64,000 nucleotides of DNA from a bacterium (GTDB lineage: Bacteria; Bacteroidota; Ignavibacteria; SZUA-365), in contig JAHLLD010000006.1 in NCBI GenBank assembly GCA_020444325.1, positions 62,001 to 126,000 on the forward strand. Direction: 5' to 3'. Every line of letters starts with the position of its first letter. Within the stretch, counting starts at the first letter, position 1. This document shows, in pieces, positions 4,588-49,900 of this stretch. Position numbers and translations under genes: made by a program. Below the pieces are notes generated by a model, which saw only the letters and a program-made list of their open reading frames with translations, searched no databases and was not told where the DNA came from.

Positions 4588-4635
4588 GATTTCCTCCATC
4601 CTCAAAAAAAACGTGGTGAATGCATGTGACTCGAC

Positions 4636-8092: not shown

Positions 8093-8460
8093 AGCTACCT
8101 CCATAAAAAATGTACCACCGTGCCTGCAGGTTTTATCTGGCACGGCGCATCCACCCGTTAATAATGCAGTCGTGATAAAACCTGTGTTTGTCCTGTATAC
8201 AATAGATATACAATACAGATCAAAACGTTGAGATTCAAGTGGGGATGGCAGCATGATGACCGCTGGACTCATTTCATCGAGGCGGCGTGTATTTGTTCCG
8301 AAAATTTCGGCTTGCTATGTTGGCGAATCACAATCACAGTCTTATTCCATGTACTGATGGGAAACCAATCCGGCATGACACACGGTGTGTGCGCTTCGTG
8401 AGTCTGCCCGGAGAGCCGGAACACATGGAATATTGAGCAGGCGAACACGATCAAAGGAAC
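8093..8460. other. Divergent intergenic region
   Basis: Separates the minus-strand VWA gene from the plus-strand VKOR fusion, so promoters for both should lie here. An inverted repeat CTGTAT...ATACAG with a 14-base AT-rich spacer sits at 8193-8218, about 100 bases ahead of the VWA start, and could be a regulatory site. I see no convincing -35/-10 pair and no gene. Confidence 0.35.
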
Positions 8461-21038: not shown

Positions 21039-21131
21039 TAAAGCCGTAACCTGTTCCTTTATTGGTAATATACGGGGAAGGGGAACACGGATGCACACAT
21101 ATCCTACAGATTTTCACCCGTCTTCGTTCTC

Positions 21132-21662: not shown

Positions 21663-21875
21663 ACGAGGGTGACCGTCGAACATCTGCTTCGCGGCGGTGC
21701 TGCCGACGTTACGCAGCAGTTTCGTGACTTCTTCGCCAAGAAGGATGACGGCTTTCGGCCGGGCCAGTTCAAGTTCGATTTTCAAGAATGAAAATATTTA
21801 TCGGCGACAGGAACAGCCCGTTTCTTCCCGATGGTGGCGAACTTCGCCGTTGGGTACGCGCTGATTATTCTGCCA
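21663..21875 (-). pseudogene. Internally deleted copy of the UDG-family gene
   Basis: On the minus strand it translates to AYPTAKFATIGKKRAVPVAD. After a break comes KIELELARPKAVILLGEEVT, followed by KLLRNVGSTAAKQMFDGHPR. Both blocks match the intact gene at 31832-32572 (GAYPTAKFATIGRERDVPVAD; KIELEVARPKAVILLGEEVT). Roughly 80 codons between them are missing, as are both ends. It overlaps the 3' end of the barrel gene at 21865. Confidence 0.85.
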
Positions 21876-31831: not shown

Positions 31832-32572
31832 TCAACCCAGCTTCTTCAGCCGCATCTTCATTCCTGGCAACAGCTCTGCGAGTACCGCAGCCCATTTATT
31901 CTTCCGGCCGCTTTTCTGTTTGGAGCTCGCTCGCATAACGATGCCTGGATGCGGCAGACAGAAAACCGTCTGCTTGGTCCCTTCGATGTCAATCTCGCGA
32001 GGGTGACCGTCGAACATCTGCTTCGCGGCGGTGCTGCCGACGCCACACAGCAGTTTCGTGACTTCTTCGCCGAGGAGGATGACTGCTTTTGGCCGGGCAA
32101 CTTCCAGTTCGATTTTCAAAAGGGGATGAGATTTTTCGGCGAAGGATGCGAATTTGCTGCGACTCTCTTCGACCTTCTTCCCGAGCGCTTTGTATTTCGC
32201 GACATGCCCTGGCTTGAAGAGAAACACCTTCACAAGATTCGTCAGCCAGAGATCCTTCAGCCCCAATCCGAGCCGATTCAAGTAGTGTTCCTGAAGCTCC
32301 GTTCCAGCTCGGACATCACGAACTTGTGCACCATCGAAGTATTTCTGTGTGGAAAATGGTGCGTCAATGTCGGCGACGGGCACATCGCGCTCCCTGCCGA
32401 TCGTGGCGAACTTGGCTGTCGGATATGCGCCGATAATCATGACACCATCTGTTGCGGTCTGTACTGGCACCACCGGTTGCAGCGGATTGCCATGCAAATA
32501 AGTGGGATGGTAGTCAAGCTGGTCGAGATACCCGGTCGCGAGTTTTTTCTGGAATGCTTGGATGGTTGGCAT
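31832..32572 (-). CDS. Uracil-DNA glycosylase family protein
   Basis: 246 aa. The ATG at 32572 follows AGAGGATTG; a TTG at 32578 would overlap the previous stop. The order of blocks fits the UDG superfamily: MIIGAYPTAKFATIG for the water-activating/base-stacking motif, LWLTNLVKVFLF for the asparagine strand, and VFCLPHPGIVMR for the histidine-proline leucine-loop motif. The canonical catalytic Asp of family 1 is not obvious, so substrate choice is open; a modified rather than plain uracil base is possible. It is the last gene of the McrBC unit, two bases after the PD-(D/E)XK gene. A broken copy lies at 21.7 kb. Confidence 0.78.
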   Translation of the reverse strand: MPTIQAFQKKLATGYLDQLDYHPTYLHGNPLQPVVPVQTATDGVMIIGAYPTAKFATIGRERDVPVADIDAPFSTQKYFDGAQVRDVRAGTELQEHYLNRLGLGLKDLWLTNLVKVFLFKPGHVAKYKALGKKVEESRSKFASFAEKSHPLLKIELEVARPKAVILLGEEVTKLLCGVGSTAAKQMFDGHPREIDIEGTKQTVFCLPHPGIVMRASSKQKSGRKNKWAAVLAELLPGMKMRLKKLG

Positions 32573-32574
32573 GG

Positions 32575-33750
32575 TCAATCCTCTGATTGAGCGGAAGAAT
32601 TGAAAAGATCGGTCATTGCTTGAAACAGTGTGTCAAGTGATTCACCGCTTACGTCTTCCAGGTTTACGTACCTCTTTCGATTTTCCAGTATCCTGTTGGC
32701 TGCACTGATGTGGGAAATCTTTTCCCGGTAGGACTGGAATCGCTCAATGCCCATACCGTACAGGTCCATATCATCTTCCCTGATGATGCTGATCGCCCAG
32801 TCTGGAAATGCATACATGACGCTCTGTGTATCCTCGCCAATTTTGATACGGAGACTGAATCCCTTCACTCCCCAGTTCATGGACCAGCCGATCCCCTCCC
32901 ACGCATCCAGCCACTTTTCAAAGACCGGACGCAGGTCAAGCCGGACCTGGTTAAGAAACAGCATCCGGTTCGTCTTTCCGCGTGGACTGCTCTTGTCATC
33001 GTCCTCGACCGCGATCTCGACTTTGGGTCGCTCTCCTTTGTACTGAATCTGAACGACACCACGGACCTTCTCGACTGTCTTACCCACGACATCAGGAATC
33101 ACGAGGAGCGGCCATTCTGACCCCTCCTCGACCCGATGGAGGTGGAGTTCAACGAGTCCGAGTCGAAAATTCAATCCCGGGACCCCGGATATGGATGAGC
33201 TGAGCAACGCAAGGTTTGGCGAAATTCGATCACCAACAATCAGCAACAGGAACTCTCCTGCAAGGAGCGACGAAATGAGCTGCTCCTGGAAGCTTTCAAA
33301 CTTCACGCCTGCTTCGAGAAGCGGAGCTTCAACCAGAGCAGCGAAAGTACTCGTCTCACCAGGATTCGAACGCAGAGACTTGTTCACTTTCGTCTCAAAA
33401 TCATCATAACTCCACCTGGACAACTCTTTCGCGTAATCTATGATTTGAGCTACGACAGTGCGGTGTTTCTCGGGATTCTTCCAGAGTTTTGTCTCGACGA
33501 TGATGAGCTTGCCGTGTGGACTCACCAGAAGAAGATCAATGTATCCCGCTGGCGTCTCCACCTCACGACCAATGGGTATTGCCGGGAAGAAGCTTTCATC
33601 GAATTCAGCCACCGGAAGCACCTGAGGTTTCTCAAAGAGCAGCGCCTGCACCCAGGCTTCGTCGATATCGCCGCCTGAATTCACCTCCTGCCGCGGCAGC
33701 AGTCGTCCAGGATCAGATTTCTCCCTGAAAAATACTGGCTGCATTTCCAT
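32575..33750 (-). CDS. PD-(D/E)XK nuclease-like protein
   Basis: 391 aa. The N-terminal part holds a nuclease core: GYIDLLLVSPHGKLIIVETK gives D72 followed by E86-x-K88, the PD-(D/E)XK pattern. A helix (RTVVAQIIDYAKELS) with the usual downstream Q follows. The C-terminal 200 residues are of mixed fold, with DUF4268-like features near its end; I do not recognise a target-binding domain. Genes of this type often accompany restriction systems. Here it follows the 126-aa gene by 38 bases and precedes the UDG-family gene, so it belongs to the McrBC unit. Cleavage activity is inferred from the motif only. Confidence 0.75.
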   Translation of the reverse strand: MEMQPVFFREKSDPGRLLPRQEVNSGGDIDEAWVQALLFEKPQVLPVAEFDESFFPAIPIGREVETPAGYIDLLLVSPHGKLIIVETKLWKNPEKHRTVVAQIIDYAKELSRWSYDDFETKVNKSLRSNPGETSTFAALVEAPLLEAGVKFESFQEQLISSLLAGEFLLLIVGDRISPNLALLSSSISGVPGLNFRLGLVELHLHRVEEGSEWPLLVIPDVVGKTVEKVRGVVQIQYKGERPKVEIAVEDDDKSSPRGKTNRMLFLNQVRLDLRPVFEKWLDAWEGIGWSMNWGVKGFSLRIKIGEDTQSVMYAFPDWAISIIREDDMDLYGMGIERFQSYREKISHISAANRILENRKRYVNLEDVSGESLDTLFQAMTDLFNSSAQSED

Positions 33751-33788
33751 ATTAACTCCTCATGAGAATTCTGATTACTAACATTCCA

Positions 33789-34169
33789 CTACCAGTATCC
33801 CCGCGTTTCATTCTCCATCGCCGCCTGCAAGTCTGCATCATTGTCCACCGTAATATTGAAATGGATCTTCAGCCACCTCGCAGAAAGGGCGTGCAACAAT
33901 ACCGTCATCCGCCTTTCAGGTTCATCAAGGTGCTCCGCGATCATGAAGGATTGCGTACGAAACAGTGTTCTCAAGGGATACACTTTATTCTGCACTCCGG
34001 CTGGATAAGCTGCGTGGAAGAAAGCAAGATCAAACTCCCGACCACCGGATTGACGCGGTGAGAACCGTTGGACCTTTACCGGAGAATACCAGCGTTGGAC
34101 CTCATCGGTGCTGTCCATGATAAACTCCATGGCATACCAGTTTCCAGGAACAATTGTAAACCGCTTCAT
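33789..34169 (-). CDS. Unknown protein in the McrBC unit
   Basis: 126 aa. The ATG at 34169 overlaps the McrC stop (ATGA), which supports it as real and co-translated. No signal peptide, membrane segment or motif is recognised. The sequence is mixed alpha/beta with aromatic residues (GNWYAMEF, VQRWYSPVKVQRF, ARWLKIHFNIT) and a short acidic region. It could be a small specificity or inhibitor subunit. That rests only on its position between mcrC and the nuclease gene. Confidence 0.65.
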   Translation of the reverse strand: MKRFTIVPGNWYAMEFIMDSTDEVQRWYSPVKVQRFSPRQSGGREFDLAFFHAAYPAGVQNKVYPLRTLFRTQSFMIAEHLDEPERRMTVLLHALSARWLKIHFNITVDNDADLQAAMENETRGYW

Positions 34170-35521
34170 GTGTGTTTCTGAACTGCTGTGTCAGAGAGAG
34201 CGTCATCATTTAAAATCTTCAGTAGCCGGTTGCGGCAATCAGTGATCGCTGTGTCACCAGCAAGATGTGCGGTATGCCGCAGAATATGTGATACGGGCAG
34301 ACCGATGATCCAGATTCGTGCGCCCATCCTGCCCCGCGCGTCCTGGATTCGCAAGCTGCGGTATTCAAACTGCTCGGTCTCGGATGGGTAAAAGAGGCAT
34401 GCCCGCCGAATGTCTTTATCGTAGGCGTAGGAGTACAGGAAAAGCTGATAGAGGTCAGAGTTAGAGACGTCGTATGTGTCCAGTCGCTTGTACTTTGAGT
34501 CAGCAACGAGCCAGCGACTGGGTACCGCCGTATCGCGCAATACAATATCAGGTCGAATTCGCTTGCGTCCTTTCCCTTCATCCCAGACGATGTGCATGGC
34601 CCTGCTCTCCTGCGTCCGGACACGGACGGTGCTCCCGAAGAACATCTGCTGGAGAAACCTCTCTACAAATCCCTGGAAAATGGCGTTCATGTCGAGGAGG
34701 AAAGAGTAGCTCCGCAGCGATGCCCTCGTGAAGACATCCTCAACGCCGATGCCACGAAGCAGCATGCGCGCATAGCCATGCGCAGAACGGTAATGTCTGT
34801 TCTGCCGGTGATATTGAAACTCCTCATCCGCGATTGAAGGATCCACCCACCGGATATCGCAGAGTTCTGAAAATATGGCATGAAGACGGCGATGGCGCGG
34901 TTGAATCGCCCTGGGGGGAATAAGCTTCGCACAGAGTTCGAGTCCTGCAAGAACGAGTAAATTATCGGCGATCAGAGGCGAATACTCATCGTATCGGCAA
35001 TGGAGTAGATCAAGAGCACCGAAGCGCTTCCGGTACTGCTTCTGCATATCTAGACTCCCACGTAGAACGGGCAGAGCATCTTCTTCCAGAAGGTAGTCCC
35101 GTATGATACCCCGCCTCACCAAATGCAGGGTCGAGAAAACGAACATCGTCATGACCAGGTCCAGCAGATTATCCTCACCGGAAGTCATCCACTCTTCCTC
35201 TTTCAGGATCGACAGTCCTTCGCTCCCATACACGTAGGCGATCAGTCTTACCAGATCGAGATGCCCTCCGCTGAACTTGGGCCGAATCTGAAAGGAGAGT
35301 TCCGGTGTTCGTACAACACCGACCCACTGCGTGGTGCGAATGTGCAATCCCTCCACCCCGTCGATTACCGATAGAGCGTTTCGTTTCTGCGCAGCAAGCT
35401 GCTCAAGTGCTGCGCGGTCCGCTGCCGAAAGGTGCTGCCCGTGGATAACTTTCCCGGCTTCCCATTCCCGCAGTTCCAGAACAGGAGTCGCACGCAGTTT
35501 TTGTGCCGGAGCGTCAATCAT
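34166..35521 (-). CDS. mcrC: McrC-like nuclease subunit
   Basis: 451 aa. The ATG at 35521 overlaps the end of mcrB by eight bases and begins a normal McrC (IDAPAQKLRATPVLELREWE); the longer open frame reads through mcrB. The N-terminal half has the DNA-binding/interaction region (FQIRPKFSGGHLDLVRLIAY). The C-terminal PD-(D/E)XK site is IRPDIVLRDTAVPSRWLVAD followed by SKYK, so the catalytic D, D and K are kept. It acts with the McrB motor to cut DNA carrying modified cytosine. It is followed by an overlapping small gene. Confidence 0.88.
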   Translation of the reverse strand: MIDAPAQKLRATPVLELREWEAGKVIHGQHLSAADRAALEQLAAQKRNALSVIDGVEGLHIRTTQWVGVVRTPELSFQIRPKFSGGHLDLVRLIAYVYGSEGLSILKEEEWMTSGEDNLLDLVMTMFVFSTLHLVRRGIIRDYLLEEDALPVLRGSLDMQKQYRKRFGALDLLHCRYDEYSPLIADNLLVLAGLELCAKLIPPRAIQPRHRRLHAIFSELCDIRWVDPSIADEEFQYHRQNRHYRSAHGYARMLLRGIGVEDVFTRASLRSYSFLLDMNAIFQGFVERFLQQMFFGSTVRVRTQESRAMHIVWDEGKGRKRIRPDIVLRDTAVPSRWLVADSKYKRLDTYDVSNSDLYQLFLYSYAYDKDIRRACLFYPSETEQFEYRSLRIQDARGRMGARIWIIGLPVSHILRHTAHLAGDTAITDCRNRLLKILNDDALSDTAVQKHT

Positions 35522-38054
35522 GGTTGGAAAAGCCTTCCAGGATTGCGCTGAAGAACTGTTCCTCGTCTTCAATGACATTTTCGGCGATGGTGTTCGCATC
35601 CGCATCGATAATACCACTGCCGAGCAGTTCAGCGAGCGCCTCGATGTCATCATAGCAATATTCCTCGAGGAGCGGCAGAATGTCGTGACGCACCCGGTCA
35701 CAGAATTCCGATTTCGATGTGATGGCGGTCCCGTCTTTGAGGAAATACGAATGACCTATCAGTTTTTCCCGTCCCTCGCGCTTCGCGATACGAACATTGA
35801 GTTCCGCCAGAAAATCCTGAAGCACCATTCCGTCAATCTCCACACCCTCGAGCAGATCCAGGTCAGGCATCACCTCGAGAAAAGAAAAACGCCGGCGCAC
35901 AGCAGCATCCAGCAGTTTGATGCTGCGATCCGCGGTGTTCATGGTGCAGACCAGGTAGACATTCGGAGGTATGGTAAACCGCTCCTTGCTCTGGGGCAGC
36001 ACGACTTCCATCCCGCGCTTGTCCTTCTCGAGCAGAGTCACCAGCTCGCCGAGCACCTTCGCGATGTTTGAACGGTTCACTTCATCGATGCACACGAGAT
36101 AGGGTTTTGATGGATTGGCGAGCGCTTCGCGGCAGATCCGCTTGAACACGCCATCTTCGAGCCGGAGCTGCATGCCGCCTGATGCAGAAGGAACCGGACG
36201 ATAGCCTTCGATAAAATCTTCGTACGAGTATGATGGATGAAATGTCAACCAGGTCAGCTGCGCCACGTCTTCCTCGCCGGTCATCACATTTTGCATCTCG
36301 GGATTTCGCTCGAGCAGCGTTGCGAGGAGATATTCCGCTTCGTCGGATGTGAGGCTGAACAATGTGCCCTGGTTACGGAAACGCATAGGCTCAGAATCTT
36401 TCAAAACAGCGTCCTGAAGCAACTCCTCGTATGTGAATCCATTATGAAGCTGCGCAATCGGTTCGAGTGTGATGCCCTGTTCCTCTGAAGTCTCCGCAGA
36501 CAGTCCCGAAGTAACACGTGAAATCGCAACGATTTTCTTCACGGGTGTGGATTCATAACCGATAACGAGGTCACCCATCTGTACCATGGGGAAATTCCGC
36601 TTGAGTCGACCGACTGTAAACAGCACGGAGCCCTGTTTGAAGAAATCATCCCATGAGCCATTTGCGGGGCTGGCAACCATCCACCACACTCGTCCGGCCG
36701 AGGAGGACTTGAGCCTTTTCTCCAGCGCAGTAAGCCGGTCGCCGTCGAGATCCTGTACGCCTACATCTTTTCCTGCACGCTTGGACAGCCACCACGCGGC
36801 AAAACGGCGGGCGACATAGGTTTTCCCTGTTCCCGGGGGACCGTACAGTACAATCTGTCCCGTACGCTCAAGCTCCCGCAGCATACGGAGATACATCGGA
36901 CCGGTAGGCAGTGGTGTTGGTGCCGGGGTCGTGGTGGGAGTGGCCGTTTGAATACGGATAAGTTCTTCCGGCGACAATTCAAGAACAGTGGTGACTCCCC
37001 AACGCTTTTGCGGTTCGATATCCTGCTGTTTCGAAACATCCCAGCTGACGTTTACTGTGTGTTTGTATTCCTGGCGCTCAGGACGCCACTGATACGCGGG
37101 CTCCTGTACAACGCCAATCGCAAGAATTTTGGATATTCCCTGGTTGGCGACAACAATATCACCGGGCTGCAATTCCATCAAACGCCAGAGTTCATTGCCC
37201 TTGCGCACAACGGCATTCTTCTTCTTGTTGTAGGTCTCAAGGAAATAATGCTCAAAGCGCTCTCTGAACTCCTCTTTGGAGGCGTACTCTGCGAGGTCAC
37301 CCATCTCATCCCAACCGACACAGATGTATCCACCAGAAAGGCAAGCATTCCAGTATTTTGCCTTCTCGCCCGGAGCGATTTTCATGATACGTTCGGCTTC
37401 GCGGGGATCAGACCATTCGTAAAGCATTTTCACCACCTCCCAGGTTTCCCAGTCCTTCAACGGGTCGATCTCACGAATCTGACGGAGAAGCTCGCGATTG
37501 AGCGTCACGACATCATAATTACGCTTCAATCGTGTCTGTGGATCGAGCTTGAGGAGAAAATGGTATATCGCATCCCGGGCATACACTGGTAGAATGTGGT
37601 TCGGGTAATAGATATGCAGCGTCTTAAGCGAAACCATCGGAAGATTGGATAACGCCTGAATCTCATCGATTTCGTTCCAGTTGCCGGCATCGGCCAACTC
37701 AAACATTTGAAGATAGGCTGCACGCAGTGTCTCCCAGGCCTTGTCTGCAGTCATCCCGAGCGACGAGTCAAACCATATCTCACCACCGCTCATCCTGTAG
37801 ATGCCGAACTTCCGGGCACTCGCTCCGCGTATGCCACCCAGTTCATTGAAGCCAAACTCCAGATCATAACAGTACCCCGAACGATCACCACCGCCTACCA
37901 CGTAATCCCCGAGGGCCATCCTTCCCCAGGCATCCCTTGGATGGAGCTGTTTGAACTCGCTGAGCTGTGATCGAATCCGTTCAGTGAACGTGGTATCGCG
38001 TTGGTAGGATTTGACGAACGACAGTATATCCTGTTTCGAATCGGCGATTGTCAT
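35514..38054 (-). CDS. mcrB: McrB-like AAA+ motor with two EVE-like domains
   Basis: 846 aa. Residues 1-220 are an N-terminal domain I cannot name. About 225-345 resemble an EVE/PUA-like base-reader (GEKAKYWNACLSGGYICVGW...MELQPGDIVVANQGISKI). A TP-rich linker follows. The AAA+ core has Walker A GPPGTGKT at 405-412, FHPSYSYEDFIEG at 605, Walker B LVCIDEVNRSN at 653 and MNTADRS at 705. Between Walker A and the FHPSYSYEDF motif lies a roughly 190-residue insert. Its part GRVWWMVASPANGSWDDF...MGDLVIGY looks like a second EVE domain. McrB normally uses GTP. The two readers suggest recognition of modified bases. McrC is the overlapping partner. Confidence 0.87.
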   Translation of the reverse strand: MTIADSKQDILSFVKSYQRDTTFTERIRSQLSEFKQLHPRDAWGRMALGDYVVGGGDRSGYCYDLEFGFNELGGIRGASARKFGIYRMSGGEIWFDSSLGMTADKAWETLRAAYLQMFELADAGNWNEIDEIQALSNLPMVSLKTLHIYYPNHILPVYARDAIYHFLLKLDPQTRLKRNYDVVTLNRELLRQIREIDPLKDWETWEVVKMLYEWSDPREAERIMKIAPGEKAKYWNACLSGGYICVGWDEMGDLAEYASKEEFRERFEHYFLETYNKKKNAVVRKGNELWRLMELQPGDIVVANQGISKILAIGVVQEPAYQWRPERQEYKHTVNVSWDVSKQQDIEPQKRWGVTTVLELSPEELIRIQTATPTTTPAPTPLPTGPMYLRMLRELERTGQIVLYGPPGTGKTYVARRFAAWWLSKRAGKDVGVQDLDGDRLTALEKRLKSSSAGRVWWMVASPANGSWDDFFKQGSVLFTVGRLKRNFPMVQMGDLVIGYESTPVKKIVAISRVTSGLSAETSEEQGITLEPIAQLHNGFTYEELLQDAVLKDSEPMRFRNQGTLFSLTSDEAEYLLATLLERNPEMQNVMTGEEDVAQLTWLTFHPSYSYEDFIEGYRPVPSASGGMQLRLEDGVFKRICREALANPSKPYLVCIDEVNRSNIAKVLGELVTLLEKDKRGMEVVLPQSKERFTIPPNVYLVCTMNTADRSIKLLDAAVRRRFSFLEVMPDLDLLEGVEIDGMVLQDFLAELNVRIAKREGREKLIGHSYFLKDGTAITSKSEFCDRVRHDILPLLEEYCYDDIEALAELLGSGIIDADANTIAENVIEDEEQFFSAILEGFSNHD

Positions 38055-38103
38055 AGCGGACTGCCCTGTGTGTGAAGTGATTGGTGAAAGGAGGTTTTGC
38101 GGT

Positions 38104-40716
38104 TCAGCTTAATTCAACCGGTTTATCTTCTGGCGCCATGATCGTAATCGTGTCAATCTGTGGGACATTCTGCTCGTACCTGGCGACGTTTATCGTACGA
38201 AGCAACGCTTTACCGGGCCTTTTGAGCCATTTTGTGGGATTCCCGGCATAAAGTGTGACCACCCAGTTGTAATAGGGTTCACCTCGACCACCTATTTTCA
38301 CAGATTCGACCGCACCACAGCGATAGAAGGTGTTGATACAGCGACGGAGATATTTCTCCCATTCGATTGCGCTGCGACAATCCTCTGGTGTCGCGAAAAA
38401 GGGAAACTCCTTCGGTGCAGACAACAGGTCCGTTTTATGATTGGAAAAATTCAGGACGTTGATCGATTTCTGCTGATTGCATGGAGCACACAGTGTTTGG
38501 AGATTCTCGATGCTGTTGTCGCCACCATAGTATGCCGGGGCAATGTGGTCAATCTGCAGGAGGCGCTTCTTATCCTCTCCGCAGCAAAGACAGGTGTTGT
38601 TGTCTCTGCGTTTGACCTGTTCCTTGACCTCGTCCGACGGTTCTCGGTTGGCCACGCGCCCCGTGGTTTTGATTACCTTGGACACCACGCTCGACTCCCC
38701 GCCGCTTCGATTCCGCTGCAAAAGCCGGTTCACGCATGCATCGTACTGTGTTTTAAAAAGGTCATAGTTGTAGTAAAAAACGTTCCAGAAACGGCTCTTT
38801 CGGTTGTATTCGGCCTGAAGTGATTCGTCCAGTTCGAACACATTCATGCGCCTGTTCATGCTGAACTCCTCCGCAAGCGCATCCAGATTGTGCAGCTCTC
38901 TATCTTCGAAGCGGAAGAATTGCGGCGGCTGTCCATGCTGCCCGATATGTCGCAGAATATGGAAGAGATCATCCTGCACGGTACCGCCAAGGCGGTCCGT
39001 ATCAGCCTGGAAATGCTTCTTCTCAAAAGCAGTAAGACGGCTCACAACAGTTTCGATGCTCAGTTCCTCCGAAGCGTCTGCATCCTTCCGTTTCTTCAGC
39101 ATATCCTCGATACAGGAGACAAACGACTGCTCGTCCCCTTCCATCACCATGACCATCTGCCGCGCCGAAGTCATGTCATCACCCCCATTCATGGTTGTCA
39201 GGTATTCGCATCGATACCAACCAACTGGCATCATGCTCTGGAAAGCGACGGGGGAAACTGTTAGTCCTTCATCCAGCATTCGTGCAAGCTTCCGTACAAG
39301 CTCGATCGAGATGAGTTGCATGGGTGGACGATGATTCTGCGATCGCTCCTCGTCCTCAATGAGTCCCTCTTCAATCTGATCATAGCCCGCCCAGGTGATG
39401 GATTGCTTCCAGTTATCGATAAAGGACACGATGAACGCACGATCCGTACCCCCGAATCTTGGTCCTCGAAGCGCACGTCCTATCATTTGTGTAAGCAGTA
39501 TCTTGCTCGTGGTCTGACGAGTCAGGAACACCGTCTGTACGTTCGGAACATCTGTGCCTTCCGTTAGCATCCGCACATTGATGAGAACGTCAAGCTTATC
39601 CTTGCGAAAATCAGAAAGTACCTTCGCATTCTCGCTTTTATCCCTGGCATTTCTCTGCTCTGCTGTCCCGCCACCACGATCGACCTGTGAATACACCACA
39701 TCTGCACGCACTCCCCTGTTGCGCAGCATTTCACGCAGCTGATCACACTGGTACCAGCGATCGGCAAACATCAGTGTTTTTCCGTACAGTTCACGTTTGT
39801 TTACATAGGTATCCGCGATCATGGCATTGCGCTCGCGGCTCTGTGCGAGTTGATCAATGATGTTCTCGGGTAAATCCCGGTATGTATTCATCCACATCTG
39901 ATATTCGCGCTCGTCAAATTCAGGAGTGTACAGCGTCGATGGCTGTTCCAGCACCGGCCGGGAAAGTACCCCTGCTGCCATCAGATCCGATGCCAGTACC
40001 TGATGCACGATCCCCTGCGGGAACACCTTCTTCAGCCAGCCTATTCTGCGTTCATCCGAATAGGTTGGTGTCGCCGTGAGACCGAGATGTACCGAAGCCG
40101 GATACTTTTGGTGGATGGCTAGCATGAGTTTACGGTATGTCGGGGCCGGAGCGTGATGCGCCTCATCGAAAACGACAACCAGGTTGCCACGAGCAGACTT
40201 GAGGAAGGCATGGAGTCCTTTCTGCTTATTGTCCTCAAACGCTCGCGCCACAGTCTGGAGCGTTCCGATGACAATATCATCGTCTTTCGTGATCTGGTGG
40301 ACTCGATAGAATCCGACAGAATTCGAAACCACCCGGACCTGCACGTTTGTCCTCGGCTCCCTCACATGACCGAGCTCGTAGCCATGCTCAACAGCCTCCA
40401 GATCGCTGGGTGGACCGAAGCCGAAAAACGCCTGTTCGAGCAGATGATGCGTATGTGCAAGCCAGAGCACCTTGTAACCATCCGACAACGGACCACTCGT
40501 CAGGAAGCGAATGGCGGTAAATGTCTTTCCTGCGCCAGTCGGGAGTGCAAGAATCCCTCCCTTCGGCGCCTGCTCCGACCTGTACCATTTCGCCAGCGCC
40601 CGCAGAGCATCTTGCTGATGCGGTGCTGGCTGCTTCACAGATGGATGTTTCCTGGCCAGAGGCAGATCAAATGATCGACAGAAATCGTGCTTGGAGAAAG
40701 TGCTATTACCGCTCAT
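38104..40716 (-). CDS. SF2 helicase fused to an HNH nuclease
   Basis: 870 aa. The N-terminal DEAD/DEAH core: LALPTGAGKTFTAI near residue 60, VVVFDEAHHAPA, LGLTATPTYSDE. The second RecA domain holds motif VI MIGRALRGPRFGG. The C-terminal third carries an HNH fold with zinc cysteines: CLCCGEDKK...LLQIDHIAPAYYGG...NLQTLCAPCNQQKS. The shape is that of a restriction-type translocase with its own nuclease. The stop lies 49 bases before mcrB and the GIY-YIG gene ends 88 bases upstream, so it probably belongs to the same transcript. No methylase partner is present in this unit. Confidence 0.88.
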   Translation of the reverse strand: MSGNSTFSKHDFCRSFDLPLARKHPSVKQPAPHQQDALRALAKWYRSEQAPKGGILALPTGAGKTFTAIRFLTSGPLSDGYKVLWLAHTHHLLEQAFFGFGPPSDLEAVEHGYELGHVREPRTNVQVRVVSNSVGFYRVHQITKDDDIVIGTLQTVARAFEDNKQKGLHAFLKSARGNLVVVFDEAHHAPAPTYRKLMLAIHQKYPASVHLGLTATPTYSDERRIGWLKKVFPQGIVHQVLASDLMAAGVLSRPVLEQPSTLYTPEFDEREYQMWMNTYRDLPENIIDQLAQSRERNAMIADTYVNKRELYGKTLMFADRWYQCDQLREMLRNRGVRADVVYSQVDRGGGTAEQRNARDKSENAKVLSDFRKDKLDVLINVRMLTEGTDVPNVQTVFLTRQTTSKILLTQMIGRALRGPRFGGTDRAFIVSFIDNWKQSITWAGYDQIEEGLIEDEERSQNHRPPMQLISIELVRKLARMLDEGLTVSPVAFQSMMPVGWYRCEYLTTMNGGDDMTSARQMVMVMEGDEQSFVSCIEDMLKKRKDADASEELSIETVVSRLTAFEKKHFQADTDRLGGTVQDDLFHILRHIGQHGQPPQFFRFEDRELHNLDALAEEFSMNRRMNVFELDESLQAEYNRKSRFWNVFYYNYDLFKTQYDACVNRLLQRNRSGGESSVVSKVIKTTGRVANREPSDEVKEQVKRRDNNTCLCCGEDKKRLLQIDHIAPAYYGGDNSIENLQTLCAPCNQQKSINVLNFSNHKTDLLSAPKEFPFFATPEDCRSAIEWEKYLRRCINTFYRCGAVESVKIGGRGEPYYNWVVTLYAGNPTKWLKRPGKALLRTINVARYEQNVPQIDTITIMAPEDKPVELS

Positions 40717-40804
40717 TTAGATTATCCCAATTTGTTTCGAACTTCTCTTTCGTATTCATCCAGCATTACAACTCGCGTTTCAGTAGCATCTGTCTGCATA
40801 CTAC

Positions 40805-41353
40805 TCACTCCACTCCAGAGACCGATTCCTGTGACTCACCAGGATCTTCTGATTCAACCCAATATGTATTTGTCATTTCGAGTGGGAGTACCCCTTTATC
40901 CCCGTGGTTGTGCAGCAATACATACTTTTGTTTTTCAGTCACACTCATCAAGCAATTAGCGTTTCTGCTCGGTTTGCAGTGAGCAATAAGGATAGATTCA
41001 ATAGTATATCGATCGCTTTTATCACATATTGCCGCTCTGATACGGATGTTTTGAATGTGATACGCCTGGGTGATTCCCTCGATGTGTTGCCGGATTCGAC
41101 TGCGAAGATGCTCTGACTGCCCAATGTACAACAAGACATCTGGTCCATAGATTTCAGAATCTCCGTACAACTGATACACACCGACACCATCCGGCAATGA
41201 ATCATAATCCATTCCCACATTGTGCCAGTGAATGGCCATCACATGGTAAGACCTCGTGGGTACGCTCGCTTGCTCTGGAAATGAAAATGTGGTCTGCTCT
41301 TTCGTCTTATCTTCGCACATCCAAGTGTTCCTTGTAGTTTGTTGATACTTCAT
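40805..41353 (-). CDS. GIY-YIG nuclease domain protein
   Basis: 182 aa. The motif is GVYQLYG...VLLYIGQSEHLRSRI, i.e. GVY followed by YIG and the arginine helix. A glutamate (TIESILIAHCKPSRNANCL) and an asparagine follow at the usual distance, so the active site looks complete. The first 50 residues form an extra N-terminal segment of unknown role, and the tail is acidic. It could be the first gene of the minus-strand unit with helicase-HNH, McrB and McrC. Target preference is not visible. Confidence 0.78.
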   Translation of the reverse strand: MKYQQTTRNTWMCEDKTKEQTTFSFPEQASVPTRSYHVMAIHWHNVGMDYDSLPDGVGVYQLYGDSEIYGPDVLLYIGQSEHLRSRIRQHIEGITQAYHIQNIRIRAAICDKSDRYTIESILIAHCKPSRNANCLMSVTEKQKYVLLHNHGDKGVLPLEMTNTYWVESEDPGESQESVSGVE

Positions 41354-41403: not shown

Positions 41404-41673
41404 TCAGACCAGGTCTGCCATTGGTTGGCCACCTTGTCTGTGGTATCGTTGAAGGCACCAGAAAGCGGGCCCATGTGAAGCGTTGCCATTTTGAGGGATC
41501 TCATGGTGCAGTTGTTCACTGACGTCGGATTGATGTACGACAACGGTCTGCTGAGATGGGATATCTTCTGCTGGAGACAAGATAGCAGGCCCCCTGCATG
41601 GCTTAACAATCATCTCCTCATCAAGGTTCGTTTTGCCACGTGCGCCCTCTGACAGAGATAATATTTTTTGCAA
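41404..41673 (-). other. Unidentified open frame downstream of the DUF6361 fragment
   Basis: The frame is open for about 110 codons and reads TIPIIFNADEFVAYLQKILS followed by a polar, repeat-poor tail to a TGA at 41404. It overlaps the 3' part of the DUF6361 fragment in another frame. There is no obvious start with a ribosome site and no recognised family. It is either a gene fragment or chance; the helical start is the only protein-like sign. Confidence 0.25.
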
Positions 41674-42107
41674 ATACGCAACGAATTCATCTGCGTTGAA
41701 GATAATCGGTATAGTCCCAAGGTTTCCCGTCTCTGCCGATAGATTTTACTCGGCAGCAGCGGCAGCTTCCGCCGTGTCACGCGACCGATCACCCCTTCCG
41801 TCACCCCCTTATCCAGCAGCATCTCAACCAGGTGCAGCTCTTCATTCCGCGCCTTGTCCGCAATCTTCGCTGACGACACCCGCTTCTCCTCAAGCGCCAT
41901 GTACATCCATGAGATGAAGAACAGGTAGCGAGCCCGCGTCTGCACTGTCCCCGTCCCGGGTAAGAAACGATCCGCTATCGCATCCCGTATGGAACCGAGT
42001 CCATGCTCATCGATCGTATCCTTCTCATCGAGCGCATGGAAGATATCGAGCATCTTGCGACGCTCTTTTTCACTGTAGTCGAGCCAGAATATATGAGAAT
42101 GAACCAT
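41610..42107 (-). pseudogene. Truncated DUF6361 gene
   Basis: 165 codons. The N-terminal 140 residues match DUF6361 well: FWLDYSEKERRKMLDIF, KDTIDEHGLGSIRDAIADRF, PGTGTVQTRARYLFFISWMY, GVIGR and LPSKIY. Full members are about 400 residues. The similarity ends near residue 140, after which the reading becomes an unrelated basic tail. The gene therefore lost its C-terminal two thirds, probably by deletion. DUF6361 members are of unknown function and, as I recall, are common in defence islands. The base composition shift to AT-rich begins just upstream, so this is near an insertion boundary. Confidence 0.7.
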
Positions 42108-42213: not shown

Positions 42214-42699
42214 TTATTCTATAATTGGTTCGGACATATTGATAGATGACATGCAGCCACCTAACTGCTTGTCTACGTTAAAAAGCGTTCTCCTAGTATC
42301 GCTATCCAGGTATATAATACTCTGTGGCGCATAGAGGTTATACCTATTCTGCATGTCCTCCAATGCTAGCGGATTACTGAACGTCCATGTTGGCCCAATG
42401 GCAATAGCCACCGCCTTATCCTTCCCGCAATAGTACCTATAATATTCAGGCTCAGTCAAACACGATTCTTCACCTACTTGACGCCATATCTCGTCTAGGT
42501 TCCCATACAACAGTCTCTCTATCCTAAATGCGCCCACAATCGCCTGTATTGGCGATGTTGCATAGATAAACGCAAGGGACCCTTCTCTTGCTCGCCTGGG
42601 CATTACCCTTCTCATCTCAACAGTCTTACATCCAGAAAGAATCATCGATACCCATTTTTGCTTTATTGGTATCAACAATCCATGGTCATTCATACACAT
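42214..42699 (-). CDS. ASCH-domain (PUA-like) protein
   Basis: 161 aa. The ASCH signature is at the start: LLIPIKQKWVSMILSGCKTV followed by EMRRVMPR, then a strand with AFIYATSPIQAIVGAFRIE. ASCH domains bind RNA or modified nucleobases. The tail of about 70 residues is not recognised. It begins 8 bases after the stop of the GNAT-PIN-ASCH gene, whose C-terminus carries a related domain, so the two proteins probably act together. AT-rich compared with flanking genes. Confidence 0.8.
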   Translation of the reverse strand: MCMNDHGLLIPIKQKWVSMILSGCKTVEMRRVMPRRAREGSLAFIYATSPIQAIVGAFRIERLLYGNLDEIWRQVGEESCLTEPEYYRYYCGKDKAVAIAIGPTWTFSNPLALEDMQNRYNLYAPQSIIYLDSDTRRTLFNVDKQLGGCMSSINMSEPIIE

Positions 42700-42706
42700 G
42701 CTAGAA

Positions 42707-44800
42707 TCACATTATTTCTTGGTTGATTATTTCATACATTTTTTCAGTAATCCTCATTGGACCTTGAACACATAGACCATGCTTAAAGTTGTGTTTCCAT
42801 ATATCGCGCATCTTTGATATGCCAAGTGGTTTCTTACATATTTCTGTATTACTAAATCGTAGCGCCATAATATTGTTGTCATAATCACCTTTAGCAGTCT
42901 CAACTAACTCATTCCATCGATACACCCCTAATGTTCTGTATTTAGAATATAGCTCCTTGGGCTTACCGACTGACACTTCATCCAAATATGATACGGCACG
43001 AATGGCTCCTTCTAAGACGCCACGTTTCGGATCCTGACTTACATACCACAATATTCTCGCAGGCGCCTGAATTTCCACACCAATAGCGGATCGGTAATAT
43101 ACGTTCTCATAGTTAAACATGAGCCTGGGGTCCGACCCGAACAAATCACCAGAAGCAATTCGACTCTCAAACATTTTCATAGCCCATATTGGCTTTATCG
43201 GGATTATGTACAATTGTAAACCAACATCCGACAGCTTACATGGCCATAATTTCCTTTCATAATATAATAGCTGACGCGCTTGATTATGCAGTAGCCCTCT
43301 GACCATACGCCCTATTACAAACATTACATCAGAATGCGCTCGGTATCGTTCACTTAGCGCCTCCAACTCATTTGCCGCGCTTCTTGAATCACCATAGTGT
43401 CGTAACGCGATCTTTATAAAGATACCATTAGTATAAACGAAACCGTTTTCCTCAAATGCCCTCTTCATAACGGTTGCTAATACCTTTTCGCGAGCCATCA
43501 CTATGGCAGTGCCACTATCTACAAGTCGTTCAACCAGTCCTGAAATAACAAAACGAGCCATGGTATCTTCATAATCTGCACCTGCAGTTTTAAACAAGCT
43601 GACCTCATGCCACCCAGCGCGAAGTGTCTTAACATAATAAATAAATAGAGGCTCCCTGCGCTCAGACCATACGATCTCCACATGTTGACCTCCTCCGTCC
43701 ATCAGAGCCTCTTTGAGCTCAGCCTCAAATCGACGACGCTTAACTCCTTCCGTTCTATGGAATACATCTAATATTCTATTATACTCCGTAGCTCTTACGT
43801 TACCTACTGAATAGGTCGATCCAGCAAACCTTACTGGTTGATAATCGGCCTTACTAATCAATTCGTCTATCCGTAAGACCAGCTCAGTCGGAGTCATCAC
43901 ATCTACAGATAGCTGTGATGACAATTCTACCGAAGATCGAAGCAACAACCGATCCTGCGTCACAAAAACCTCTGCACGCGAGAGCGCTGCGATAGCGAGA
44001 TGCCTGGAATCCGATCTGGCGCTCTCTGTATCTTTGTCACCAACGATTAATGCAATATCGTGGGCAAGGCGCTCCACATTTAGGCCATCTTGTGATAGGA
44101 TTTTATATTTTCTTGCTGCTTTTCTGTTTTTGTATCTTGCGCTCTCATCAGGATTTCTATTGATCTCATTATAAATCTCATTCGTCAAAGATAACTGTAC
44201 TCTGCTATCAATCCAATCTGCCTTCAGATAATCTACATCCTTACTTACGTGTTCACACAACCGCTCGATTTGGAAAAATATATTTGCATCAAGCGTCACG
44301 CACACTTTCGTTGCAGAGTCGACTTCCTCCGTATCAGTAAATAAGTCAGGGTGCCCATAGTCGTACCACCATACAGTAAGTCGTGAACCCCATTTACTTC
44401 TCCCATCCATTTCTGCTACAGGCTTAAACCCAAGTCGTGGCCACAACTTATTGGCAGCATAGTCTCTCCGACAACGCACCCTGACACCTGTATATAGCTC
44501 CTTCGTTTTGCTTTCAAAGTGCTCGAAAAGCGAACGCGATACACCTTTCCTTCTATGGCCCTGCTCAACGCACAGATGAACAATGTAGGCCTGCCTTCTT
44601 CGTCGCACCTCTGAATAGAGAAGATATCCTACAATCACCTCATCGTGCTTTGCAACAATAATTTTCTCCTGTTCACAATATGTATTGTAAGCACCTGCCG
44701 GAAGGAATCCTAAGGTTTTTGAGTTCCTATTCCCAAGTTCGATTACATACGTCAGCTCATCACAGTCGCATATGCTGCAGGTAATCACGCTCATTTTCAA
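42707..44800 (-). CDS. GNAT acetyltransferase-PIN-ASCH multidomain protein
   Basis: 697 aa. Residues 1-150 are a GNAT fold (VGYLLYSEV...VHLCVEQGHRRKGVSRSLFE gives the acetyl-CoA loop). About 165-310 are a PIN nuclease: VTLDANIFFQIE, EIYNEINRN, SDSRHLAIAAL and VTQDRLLL supply the acidic residues. A middle region (about 340-480) again looks GNAT-like but lacks the acetyl-CoA loop (FVISGLVERLVDSGTAIVMA). The C-terminus from about 530 is ASCH/PUA-like (LQLYIIPIKPIWAMKMFE). PIN plus GNAT in one chain resembles toxin-antitoxin effectors acting on RNA. The ASCH protein follows directly. AT-rich composition, like its neighbours. Confidence 0.8.
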   Translation of the reverse strand: MKMSVITCSICDCDELTYVIELGNRNSKTLGFLPAGAYNTYCEQEKIIVAKHDEVIVGYLLYSEVRRRRQAYIVHLCVEQGHRRKGVSRSLFEHFESKTKELYTGVRVRCRRDYAANKLWPRLGFKPVAEMDGRSKWGSRLTVWWYDYGHPDLFTDTEEVDSATKVCVTLDANIFFQIERLCEHVSKDVDYLKADWIDSRVQLSLTNEIYNEINRNPDESARYKNRKAARKYKILSQDGLNVERLAHDIALIVGDKDTESARSDSRHLAIAALSRAEVFVTQDRLLLRSSVELSSQLSVDVMTPTELVLRIDELISKADYQPVRFAGSTYSVGNVRATEYNRILDVFHRTEGVKRRRFEAELKEALMDGGGQHVEIVWSERREPLFIYYVKTLRAGWHEVSLFKTAGADYEDTMARFVISGLVERLVDSGTAIVMAREKVLATVMKRAFEENGFVYTNGIFIKIALRHYGDSRSAANELEALSERYRAHSDVMFVIGRMVRGLLHNQARQLLYYERKLWPCKLSDVGLQLYIIPIKPIWAMKMFESRIASGDLFGSDPRLMFNYENVYYRSAIGVEIQAPARILWYVSQDPKRGVLEGAIRAVSYLDEVSVGKPKELYSKYRTLGVYRWNELVETAKGDYDNNIMALRFSNTEICKKPLGISKMRDIWKHNFKHGLCVQGPMRITEKMYEIINQEIM

Positions 44801-44874: not shown

Positions 44875-46806
44875 TTATGATATTAATACTACGTCCATCG
44901 CTATATCTTTATCTAGGCTTCTCGATCGCACGTACTTTACTCTCTTACCTTTCGCTGCGACCGCATAATCATAGTTGGCAAACCAATCGTACTTGACAAA
45001 CAATGATCTACCATCTAGATCTGATATCACAACCCCATACCCCTTTTCAAGACTAAACCAATCAATTGTTCCACATTCATCAATTAATTGTATCTTATCA
45101 TTGCTACCATCTACGTATGAGATAATCTCCGCTGTAAACGCCTTATACCTCCAAGGACGAGCCGATTCATCATAACTATCAAGTTCCCGCTGAATGATAC
45201 GTATCGAGTCATTTATTGCTTTATTCAGTATGTCATCATTCATAATTTTATCTTCTAGTACCTTGCAGTATTCAGCTATTTTCCTAGAGTTGAACGGCGG
45301 CACCCTGCCGTCACCTAGCATCATACGTACAAGCATCATTATCTGCGGACGGTATTTTGTTAATTGCTTATCACTATTATACATATATTTACTGACTTTC
45401 AATATTAACAGCCCACAGATGAAATACGGATCGCTTTTGTGACTATCAAGAAACAGCTTTCTACGCTTTTCCTTTAATATTGCACCGTAGTACTGATGAT
45501 CACTATGTGGCTCGTTGTCAAAGATTGCGACTGCCGCCTTAGCTAGTTGCGGCATCGTTATGATGTTCAGACGAGAGATATCACTGTAAGCATATTGCTT
45601 AGAGCGTCTTTCATAATACAACTCTACACCTTTTTCCATCCTCTTAATTTCATAATATGACTCTAATTTTTTGTGAAACCTCGATAGCGACTCAAATGCT
45701 TCAACCTTCACTTCAGTTTGCCTATTCGCCGCTCTTATCACAGATCCTATAATATCAGAGTCGTCCGAAGCAATTATCTTAACGGGGACTAAAAAATCAC
45801 CCTTATTAGATACATCTCGATTTTGATATAGTATATTCGATGTTTGACAGCCGTTTACTATTTGATAACCCTCCAAGTGCGCCACTCTTCCAATTATCCT
45901 AAGCGTTTTAGCCACGAGAGTGATACCATTGTTCATCAGGGGGAACCACCTTCTCGTAACATCATTAACTACGGTCTCGTTGATCTCGAGGTTTACTTCG
46001 TTCATGCCTTGGAAATCTCTGACGTTCTCATAGAACACATCTCTATTGAGGACACCATTCTTTTCAAGGAGCTTGATAAACTCTGAGGACTTAACAGTAC
46101 CTACAACTGCGTCACTTACACCATTGATCTGAGGAAACGCGATCTCTCCATCCATTTCGATGGATGCCTGGTTATCTCTCAGCATATCCTCGTAGGTGCT
46201 TCGGAGCTCCTCAGAACCAATGAAATGGTGCTCTATCTTAGAGAATAACTTCATATTATTAAGTAACACCTCCGAATCAGCTTGGGCTGCAATCTGATCC
46301 GCTTGTGGGCCCCTCTCGGATGTTGTCGCATAAACAACATGCACTTCAGGGTATTCCTTAAAGATGAAAGCATTCCTGAATATATGATTTTTGATATTAT
46401 AATACTCTTCCAATGCTTCATTAAAGGGATACTTATGCTCGTCGCTGAAATAATCTTTCACTCCAGCGTAAAACCGTAAGAGGGTAGCGACTTCAATACT
46501 ATCTGATGTTTTTGCCTGTACAAAGACAAATTTCACTTCGATTGCCTTTCCAGTTCCGACGAAATGCTCTACATCCGATACATCCGTTACTAGATGATCA
46601 TTTATGAATATTGCTATCATGTCGATGCCTGCATCGTTTTGCCCATCAACATCCATTTCCGTATAGTCTTGCCTATCTGCTAGTTGCAATTTATGGAGAA
46701 ACATCGCAGTTGAGAAGTATTGAAAGCTCCTTTCAATCTGTCCACCTCCAAGCCCATTGTCCACATCAAATTTTTCAACGTAGGATTTCAGGATAATATC
46801 TTTCAT
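44875..46806 (-). CDS. AIPR family protein with cold-shock-like C-terminal domain
   Basis: 643 aa. AIPR (abortive infection phage resistance) core: FYENVRDFQGMNEVNLEI, FPLMNNGITLVAKTL, YQIVNGCQTSNILYQN. N-terminally there is a nuclease-like stretch, QNDAGIDMIAIF and VKFVFVQAKTSDS, the D...QxK pattern of Mrr/PD-(D/E)XK enzymes. The last 70 residues read GTIDWFSLEKGYGVVISDLD followed by GRSLFVKYDW, a cold-shock/S1-like nucleic-acid-binding fold. It follows the DrmMI gene by 126 bases in the same direction. AT-rich. Phage-induced growth arrest is known for AIPR members; the fused RNA-binding domain is unusual. Confidence 0.85.
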   Translation of the reverse strand: MKDIILKSYVEKFDVDNGLGGGQIERSFQYFSTAMFLHKLQLADRQDYTEMDVDGQNDAGIDMIAIFINDHLVTDVSDVEHFVGTGKAIEVKFVFVQAKTSDSIEVATLLRFYAGVKDYFSDEHKYPFNEALEEYYNIKNHIFRNAFIFKEYPEVHVVYATTSERGPQADQIAAQADSEVLLNNMKLFSKIEHHFIGSEELRSTYEDMLRDNQASIEMDGEIAFPQINGVSDAVVGTVKSSEFIKLLEKNGVLNRDVFYENVRDFQGMNEVNLEINETVVNDVTRRWFPLMNNGITLVAKTLRIIGRVAHLEGYQIVNGCQTSNILYQNRDVSNKGDFLVPVKIIASDDSDIIGSVIRAANRQTEVKVEAFESLSRFHKKLESYYEIKRMEKGVELYYERRSKQYAYSDISRLNIITMPQLAKAAVAIFDNEPHSDHQYYGAILKEKRRKLFLDSHKSDPYFICGLLILKVSKYMYNSDKQLTKYRPQIMMLVRMMLGDGRVPPFNSRKIAEYCKVLEDKIMNDDILNKAINDSIRIIQRELDSYDESARPWRYKAFTAEIISYVDGSNDKIQLIDECGTIDWFSLEKGYGVVISDLDGRSLFVKYDWFANYDYAVAAKGKRVKYVRSRSLDKDIAMDVVLIS

Positions 46807-46932: not shown

Positions 46933-49900
46933 TCATGGATCGCAAGAAGTCCATATGTTTTGGTAGTCTTTTTCTCTATTACATCTAGTGAATGGCGCGA
47001 AATAGTCAATAGTCCTAATCTTTGGGCCACTCGCCACTGTTTCGTCTTTGATTGTCTTGCTAACTATACCAATTGACTTCATCTTTACCTCTTCCCATCT
47101 GCTCCGATCTAAACCAACCCCTCCAAGCCCTCTGCTCGCAGTATATATGATTTTCCCTTTGCTGTCGTACCACGTTTCATTGTCATTGTAGTAAAGCACG
47201 GGGAATTGTATTTTGTACATAGCTATAAGTTCGTTATACGTTAGACCTAGCGATTTTGCTACCAAAACATCTAGTTCTAGCTGAATCCATCGCCGTGCAT
47301 AGTCTGATAAACCGACATAGCTATCATACCAATCATCATTCATCTTACTATATTCAATTCCACTTAACCTGCTATCTGTGCAATACCACCCATCATTCGT
47401 AAAGCTGGGCATCCATACAGCGTTCCACAAGTCAGAATATTTTTCAGTAATGCTATTTGCGTATAGCGCGCGCAGCATCACTTTATTTCTATATTCTGTA
47501 AGGAATGGTAGCGTGCCTAAAACATCGACTCCTACATTGGTTTTTCCAGATGTTTTAATCAGAAAGTCAAACACAATAGTGCTACACAAGCCTGCAAACA
47601 GCACCATATCACGAACATCCTTAAACACAACACTTAGCACACTATGTATATGCCCGGCGCCAGGATGCAAGATTGCACTAATCATTGTTCTCTCGTTTGC
47701 CGGTCCCATCATTTTGCGAAAAATCAATCTGTAGTGATCAGTAACTTTTGATCTGCTATCCCATGGCACTGTTGGGACCTTATCGTCATAGTCCGCAATA
47801 GAAACATTTGGTAAATAATTGGTTCGTGGGCTATACGCATTATCAATTGCATCATGATCAATAATATCATAGTGGCTTTTCTCGGTGCATACAGGCTTAG
47901 GTGTTTTATATAACGGGTTATTTATATAGAAGTGTGGACCAGAATAGATTAGCTCCTTCTCTGTCTCCGGAAAATCAGTCCTTCGTATAATTAAATTGTC
48001 CTCTTGCGCATATGTTTCATGCCACATCTCGCTGGCGTACCATACCTCTGAATCTTGATATAGTCTATGGTTGTGCGATCCAAATTTGAGTAGGGCAGCT
48101 AATAGTTCCTTAGAATGTATTGATGGTAGTTTTGTCTCTTTACAATCTCCTATTCCGCCTGAAAGCCGAGCTATTGCCTGAAGCTCATCCTCAGATATTT
48201 CGAGAACACGCATCCTGTGCCCTCTCAAGTCCCATTCATCAAATTCATTTTTCATCCTCGGTACTGCGCCCTTCCCGTCGTGTTGGATACATTGGTCAAT
48301 GATCTTCGGATGAAAGACATTTGCTATTGTTATGAACTTAACGTCGCGAGGCCTTGAGTGGATATTTAGACTATATTTTTCTCGATGAGCTATAGGGAAT
48401 AGCATTAATGCATTTTGAAACTGAAAATGCGCCCTAAGTCTCGGATAAAGCGCCGCGCGCAGTTTTCCTCCCTTCGGATCGTCGTACACTCCCTCCGGAT
48501 GCAGGAATCCCGACGCACTCTGTTCATTCCCCACCATCCAGGCTGTAGGCAGAAAGCATTTGTACAGATTGCTCTGCATCCCCTGCAGCAGTGGGTAGTT
48601 CTGCTTGCCGTTGAGGAAGTTCTGCGTGCCTTCGGAGACGGTGAAGGCGTCGAGGTAGGTGCGCTGAAGGTCTAGACGGTCGAGGGTGTCTTCGCGGAGG
48701 TCGGCGAGCTGCTTGGAGGAGTGCTTGCGGACGACGAAGCGGGGGTCGGCGTCACCGAGGACGCTGCCTTCGTTCCATTCGATCTTGATCCAGGGGGGAT
48801 TTCCAAGTATAAGGTCGAAACCGCCGCGGTCGGCGAAGATTTCAGCGAATTCCAGCTCCCAGTGCAGGAAGGTGTTCTCCGCGGCGATGCGGCGGACGAT
48901 GCCGAGGCGGGGATTGGCGTCACAAAGCTCGTCGACGTCGATGATACCGTAGCGCTCGAGCAGTTCGAGCTGCTGCTTTTCGTCCACGCTCTCGGGGAAG
49001 AGCTCGGACTGCGGTTTGTCAGGAACGGCTTCCTGCCTGCCTTCCAGAATCAGTGTCAGGTCTTCAAGGTACTGAGTGCGGGACGGTAGGACATCGGCTT
49101 CCTGTATGGGCCAGAACCACAGGGCGCACCAGTAGTCCATCACCAGTTTCAGCCTGCGGTAAGCACTGCTGTTCTCCAATCCCTCTCCATACAGCTCCCT
49201 AGCCAGCAACCGGTCTTTCTGCGCCAGGTTCAGCTTCTCATGATGTCCGCCGTCCTTCTCATGACCGAAGATGTCGATTTCATCCTCGGTCTCTTCCTCG
49301 ATGCGCCTGCGAGTTTCGATATGGTGGGACCATAATCCGTCTATGGCTGTGGACAGCCTTTGGAGGATTTTGATTTCCTCGGTATTGGGCGGATCCATGA
49401 ATCCGCCTCTTCCCGACCATTTGCGGATTTTAGCTATTTCATCCGGGACCATGGCCTTGACAACCTTGTCATTATAATTTGCCATCCCGTTGTCCGGCAG
49501 GAGGAAATGGTAGATGGTGTCGGCAGGACGATCCTGGCCGGGCATGATGCGGTCAGGGACAAGGTTCAGCCACAGATCGTCTTTCTTCTTCGCCTTCAGG
49601 CTGGAAATGGGAAAGACCTGCCTGCGGGCACCTATGAGAGAATTGCCGACGACGAGCTGATTGCCGAACCAGGGGACGAGACTTTCGCGGTGGATGGTGT
49701 TGAGCCAGAGTGAAACTTCAGCCAGTTCCACGGCTACAGGATTGAGATCCACTCCGTATGCACAGTTGTCGGCAAGCCAGGCTTTGACTTTTTGCTTCTC
49801 GCGGACGTAGCTGTCGTGCGGGATGACGCGTCCCGTTTCCTTTTGCTTGCGCTGCAGGTAGGCCTCGGATGCCTGGTTGACGTACTCGTTGAGGAAGGCC

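Follow-up and report, generated by a model that had tools for sequence, protein, structure and literature searches.

The seven genes that run from 41353 to 31832 on the minus strand of the window (the whole 64-kb stretch of DNA analysed here) raise the question of whether they form a single defence system, and of what part a UDG-superfamily protein would play beside McrBC. In the open reading frame list of the window the genes follow one another, in transcription order, with gaps of 88, 49, -8, -4, 38 and -4 bp, the largest being 88 bp and three being overlaps; this bears out the preliminary description of a one-directional set with gaps of at most 88 bp. Domain searches of the window proteins with Pfam, PADLOC and NCBIfam gave the order, 5' to 3', GIY-YIG, helicase-HNH, McrB with an EVE domain, McrC, a 126-aa protein, a NucS-like PD-(D/E)XK nuclease and a UDG-superfamily protein, and the four nucleases counted previously (GIY-YIG, HNH, McrC and NucS-like) were right by domain. 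Catalytic motifs appeared intact by eye in the helicase, HNH, AAA+, McrC and GIY-YIG proteins. A scan for sigma-70 promoters found 12 against 9.9 expected, a chance-level result from a scan unsuited to the host phylum.

The McrB-like AAA+ motor (846 aa; 35514..38054, minus strand as for all seven genes) matched AAA_5 (4.2e-17), EVE (1.8e-6, over the Pfam cut-off) and NCBIfam McrB (4.5e-48), and the motifs GPPGTGKT, IDEVNRS and NTADRS are present on direct reading. It is laid out as a PD-T4-1-like N-terminus (residues 6–222), a PDC-S02-like reader (225–339) and an AAA region carrying EVE (456–574), with the EVE domain inserted after Walker A and before the rest of the AAA domain. McrC, the PD-(D/E)XK nuclease subunit (34166..35521; Pfam McrBC PF10117, 1.4e-48), contains the motif D..ADSKYK by direct reading; the ATG at 35521 is a better start than the mechanical ORF start at 35701 and leaves an 8-bp overlap with mcrB. 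The pair carries three features of the McrBC class, an AAA+ motor with Walker A and B, an adjoining mcrC and a modified-base reader domain on McrB. It resembles described EVE-McrBC systems and E. coli McrBC (PMC7641849) in its GTPase-type AAA+ McrB with an EVE reader, its McrC PD-(D/E)XK partner and its adjacent, overlapping genes, but differs in having EVE inside the AAA domain after Walker A, a PD-T4-1-like N-terminus and extra genes packed around it.

The closest McrBC was that of G009, a genome of the same family but another genus (McrB profile E 6e-257). Its locus pairs McrC with an McrB that shares the EVE insertion, and also holds a DUF6361 remnant, a gene for a 212-aa YbjQ-like protein and a counterpart of the 126-aa gene. 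In the window the 126-aa protein (33789..34169) overlaps mcrC by 4 bp; it had no family match in Pfam, PADLOC, NCBIfam or PHROGs and none in plasmids, its single-sequence model had a pLDDT of 41, and among 129 genomes of the class a homologue (51% identical, also 126 aa) was found in G009 only, downstream of mcrC. The G009 mcrBC locus has no GIY-YIG, helicase-HNH, NucS-like or UDG gene. Because G009 is without these four of the seven, we regard the set not as a conserved unit but as a mosaic around an EVE-McrBC core, and the earlier picture of seven genes as one conserved system gives way here, as it does on the helicase-HNH relatives, which stand without the rest.

The helicase itself belongs to superfamily 2 and has a C-terminal HNH domain (870 aa; 38104..40716; Pfam ResIII 5.1e-23, Helicase_C 1e-12, HNH 4.7e-10). 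Relatives of 44–46% identity were found in two Deinococcus plasmid records, and around these and a relative in G390 the other six genes were absent by an ORF-based neighbour listing, a method that can hide genes under overlapping frames; two genes masked in this way, the G009 homologue of the 126-aa gene and UDG2 in L124 (see below), were recovered by profile search. The GIY-YIG protein (182 aa; 40805..41353; Pfam GIY-YIG 1.2e-4, just at the cut-off; NCBIfam Cho 1.3e-5) resembles the excinuclease Cho/UvrC type and has the GVY/YIG/R/E/N motif residues on direct reading. CMoRE (PMC12923530) likewise has a GIY-YIG nuclease, which acts in defence against modified cytosine, but at 182 aa the window protein is small and yielded no recognisable sensing domain. 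The NucS_C-like PD-(D/E)XK protein (391 aa; 32575..33750) gave a partial match to PADLOC PDC-S11 (3.1e-10) and a sub-threshold one to NucS_C (0.0065; 16.9 bits against a cut-off of 24, and for NucS 17.1 against 216), and a D...ETK nuclease motif was read directly. Its relatives occur in six other of 395 genomes; by the ORF-based listing one of them adjoins mcrBC (in L037) and most lie elsewhere, so the proposed tie of this gene to mcrBC is upheld by one further linkage but not by the majority of its relatives.

Upstream of the seven genes stands an N-terminal fragment of a DUF6361/ZacA protein (41610..42107, minus strand; Pfam DUF6361 1e-26, PADLOC ZacA 1.3e-42), with a counterpart upstream of mcrB in G009 (1.7e-6). 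Its DUF6361 match covers just positions 2–136 of 388, and an assignment of the locus to ZacABC was rejected because full-length ZacA/DUF6361 is not present. A low-GC block with PDC-M11B-like, GNAT and AbiU/AIPR-like proteins lies further upstream. Within it, a PDC-M11B/ASCH-like protein adjoins a protein of 697 aa that begins with a GNAT domain (42214–44800; block about 41% GC), forming a separate candidate defence pair, and an AbiU/AIPR-like protein (44875–46806; PADLOC AbiU 9e-114) has at its C-terminus a match to cold-shock proteins (CspE 2e-6), which makes it an unusual fusion. The sister genome G001 keeps genes matching window 14703–21098 and 46933–51591, the latter counterpart being at a contig end, and its sequence upstream of the 14703–21098 counterpart differs. 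Since G001 thus differs between conserved flanks, the window block lies in a variable region.

The UDG-superfamily protein (248 aa; 31832..32578, with a start at TTG 32578 or ATG 32572) matched Pfam UDG (PF03167, 1.3e-8; 35.5 bits against a cut-off of 24.3), and its predicted structure (pLDDT 93.8) aligned with the family-4 UDG of T. thermophilus (Z 19.3, rmsd 2.4, 184 residues) and with UdgX (Z 18). With these enzymes it shares the fold (Z 18–19), the stacking Phe75, the base-reading Asn114 and the His-Pro of motif B, but it has neither the GEAPG motif A nor the Fe-S cysteines (only C178 and C207 are present) nor the UdgX KRRIH loop, and restriction genes flank it; the invariant His125 aligns elsewhere than the covalent His109 of UdgX. 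Membership of the UDG superfamily and a defence setting are also common to Brig1 and Brig3 (PMC11078745, PMC13160076), to which the family is likened here by published description; no Brig protein was among the PDB matches listed, which has no bearing on kinship. Partners differ, Brig1 homologues being most often near BREX/Pgl (PMC11078745) and the window family near restriction systems. Restriction by base excision is known from R.PabI-type glycosylases (PMC10273834), which excise a normal base in their recognition sequence; the window protein was dropped as an enzyme of that type on account of the different fold.

When the single window protein was used as query against the genome contigs no match was obtained, whereas a seven-sequence alignment searched over the contigs of named genomes recovered 28 loci, mostly from Bacteroidota and including Ignavibacteria and Chlorobiota MAGs. 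The gene has a sparse, patchy distribution (8 of 395 genomes), and relatives were absent from the plasmids, phages and viral contigs searched, which makes a phage gene unlikely. Restriction neighbours, named by locus from Pfam matches, are of several types. L045 has the order McrB-McrC-133aa-UDG with gaps of 11 and 65 bp and L052 HsdR..UDG-101aa-McrB-McrC; in L046 HsdR and UDG are 23 bp apart and HsdM and HsdS-like genes are more distant, and in L051 (HsdM-HsdS-UDG..HsdR) UDG stands between HsdS and HsdR. One ORF of L060 (8915–10663) combines Helicase_C, the type I R-subunit C-terminus EcoEI_R_C and a UDG domain, the R gene being split upstream of this HsdR-UDG fusion by a frame change. UDG pairs with GmrSD in L055 and with a Schlafen/AlbA_2 protein in L050 and L068, and in L062 a GIY-YIG-DUF4357-like protein lies two genes away. 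Roughly half or more of the 28 loci have no recognised restriction neighbour, short contigs being among this remainder, and several relatives sit amid housekeeping genes.

A sister family, UDG2, was found in 11 of 385 genomes (8 of 8 aligned members match Pfam UDG). Linkage of a glycosylase gene with mcrBC was one of the points on which the preliminary description had been made to depend, and it recurs: in L045 and L052 for the window family, and in L037 and L124 for UDG2. L037, from another family, unites NucS-like, GIY-YIG-DUF4357, McrB, McrC, GIY-YIG and UDG2 genes, and L124 (G000:C14:122501-142500) is a second mcrBC locus of the window host, where UDG2 precedes mcrB by 1.5 kb and mcrC is followed by an HNH_2 gene. 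UDG2 also stands between GmrSD and HNH genes in G008 and near type III Mod and Res genes in L144. A conserved HNH-UDG2 gene pair was seen in Chlorobiaceae-like genomes (L141:4301-5125, L142 and L143). Two alike proteins without a Pfam match (L059:967-1887 and L144:985-1794), each directly beside a UDG-family gene, contain a GIY-YIG-like motif (FVVDGDVKYIGKT in L144).

Matches to restriction-gene profiles numbered 11.9 per 100 kb at distances of up to 2.5 kb from UDG but 2.2 at 5–10 kb, although these neighbour profiles were partly built from the same loci. For the first UDG family, with the window left out, two mcrC neighbours were seen against 0.0055 expected from a density of 21 mcrC in 197 genomes; this test treats genes as independent and so overstates significance, and the clustering of defence genes weakens the estimate. 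Restriction labels are scattered over the UDG tree, indicating that UDG-restriction partnerships arose repeatedly.

Given the domains, the operon-like spacing, the EVE insertion common to the window and G009, the UDG fold and the repeated restriction linkage, we see an even chance that the locus is a composite restriction system of the modification-dependent type IV, in which an EVE-McrBC core has been joined by a Brig-like UDG partner that is swappable among restriction systems. By analogy with what is established for the McrBC family, the McrB reader domains would bind DNA with a modified base, the AAA+ ring would translocate and McrC would cut. Accessory genes would have been added around this core; the UDG would most likely act in the manner of Brig, flipping a modified pyrimidine out of the invading DNA and removing it, and the abasic sites might then block replication or be cut by the neighbouring nucleases, a division of labour in which the glycosylase would cooperate with McrBC in defence. 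Base-modified DNA, put forward earlier as the target, is plausible in the light of the EVE-McrBC core and of a UDG family found repeatedly beside restriction systems. Against this reading, if the G009 McrBC is functional, it has no need of a UDG; chance neighbours in defence islands are commoner than the simple density estimate allows; and both motif A and three changed positions of the window UDG, considered below, depart from what an active Brig-like enzyme would lead one to expect.

A somewhat less probable reading, though one with a substantial claim, is that EVE-McrBC lies in a defence island beside independent single-gene defences, the UDG being a passenger or a stand-alone Brig-like gene unlinked to McrBC. 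The four genes missing beside McrBC in G009, the helicase-HNH relatives that stand alone, the UDG relatives amid housekeeping genes and the divergence of G001 between conserved flanks would all fit such an arrangement, but it leaves unaccounted for the overlapping genes, the HsdR-UDG fusion and the recurrence of UDG beside McrBC, HsdR and GmrSD in different clades.

Motif A of the UDG family is GAYPS (GAYPT in the family-4 comparison), in place of the N50-P51-S52 of Brig3, where the polar N50 is catalytic (PMC13160076). The family has no polar residue of the Brig3 N50 or UdgX E52 type. Family-5 UDGs too are without a polar residue in motif A and are nevertheless active, so that the window family may still be catalytic. 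At the base-reading position, the family motif W-x-T-D-x-V-K aligns by profile to T-N82-V-V-K of the S. tokodaii UDG, whose uracil-reading N82 has been equated with Brig1 E147 (PMC11078745), and we infer that Brig3 D127 occupies the same place as window residue 114. The family Asp, present in 22 of 22 relatives, corresponds to these acidic Brig residues, but the window protein alone has Asn114, and it alone carries E78Q and S91A at two further positions invariant in the 22 relatives. In human UNG, N204D converts a uracil glycosylase into a cytosine glycosylase (PMC11289083), and D127N inactivates Brig3 on 5hmC (PMC13160076). From Asn114, E78Q and S91A together, the window protein may read a uracil/thymine-type base instead of the target of its family, or may have lost activity.

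That it no longer excises bases, and persists as a reader that merely binds or as a copy in decay, we consider less likely than not, though about as probable as the defence-island reading. Two of the three changes replace an acid by an amide (E78Q and D114N), the branch is long in the UDG-family tree (1.01 against a median of 0.45), and 10 kb from the gene there is a dead second copy (21664..21868, minus strand), two pieces of which, 150 and 68 bp long, match the intact gene at 87% and 76% respectively. The frame is open, however, the predicted fold is intact, Phe75 and the motif-B His210-Pro211 are kept, and active family-4 UDGs normally have Asn where the window protein has Asn114. The last ~60 bases of the remnant are identical to the intact gene, after which identity ends abruptly, which looks like recombination or gene conversion.

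It is improbable that the gene serves DNA repair, removing uracil from host DNA with its proximity to restriction genes regulatory or due to chance: the nearest folds are those of family-4 repair UDGs, Asn114 is a uracil-type residue and some relatives sit amid housekeeping genes, but the rare, patchy distribution is unlike that of a repair gene, the family has Asp at the base-reading position and the four-Cys Fe-S set is absent. That the seven genes together encode a single dedicated machine is very improbable, for despite the tight one-directional packing and the grouping of NucS-like, two GIY-YIG, McrB, McrC and UDG-like genes in L037, G009 is without four of the seven, and in L037 the GIY-YIG and UDG proteins are of other subfamilies and helicase-HNH is missing.

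The linkages suggest that the UDG family and its sister serve bacterial immunity as an interchangeable 'base-removal' module, of which we found no prior description. Tentatively, and with less confidence than for the composite locus itself, we propose that this module serves types I, III and IV (McrBC and GmrSD) restriction and is sometimes fused to the motor, that base excision coupled to nuclease attack would hit cleavage-escaping phages at the modified base, and that the acid-to-amide change in the window turned an enzyme for cytosine-type modified bases into one for uracil- or thymine-type modified bases. If so, base excision would play a wider part in bacterial immunity than the few known Brig cases show, and the Asp/Asn position would predict directly which base each UDG reads. 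The HsdR-UDG fusion and the McrBC-UDG and GmrSD-UDG2 operons would then be a source of enzymes with new modified-base specificities, of use in phage defence studies and in DNA-modification mapping.

Elsewhere in the window, two direct repeats of ~940 bp (3664–4599 and 7169–8104), 73% identical, lie inside neighbouring large genes.
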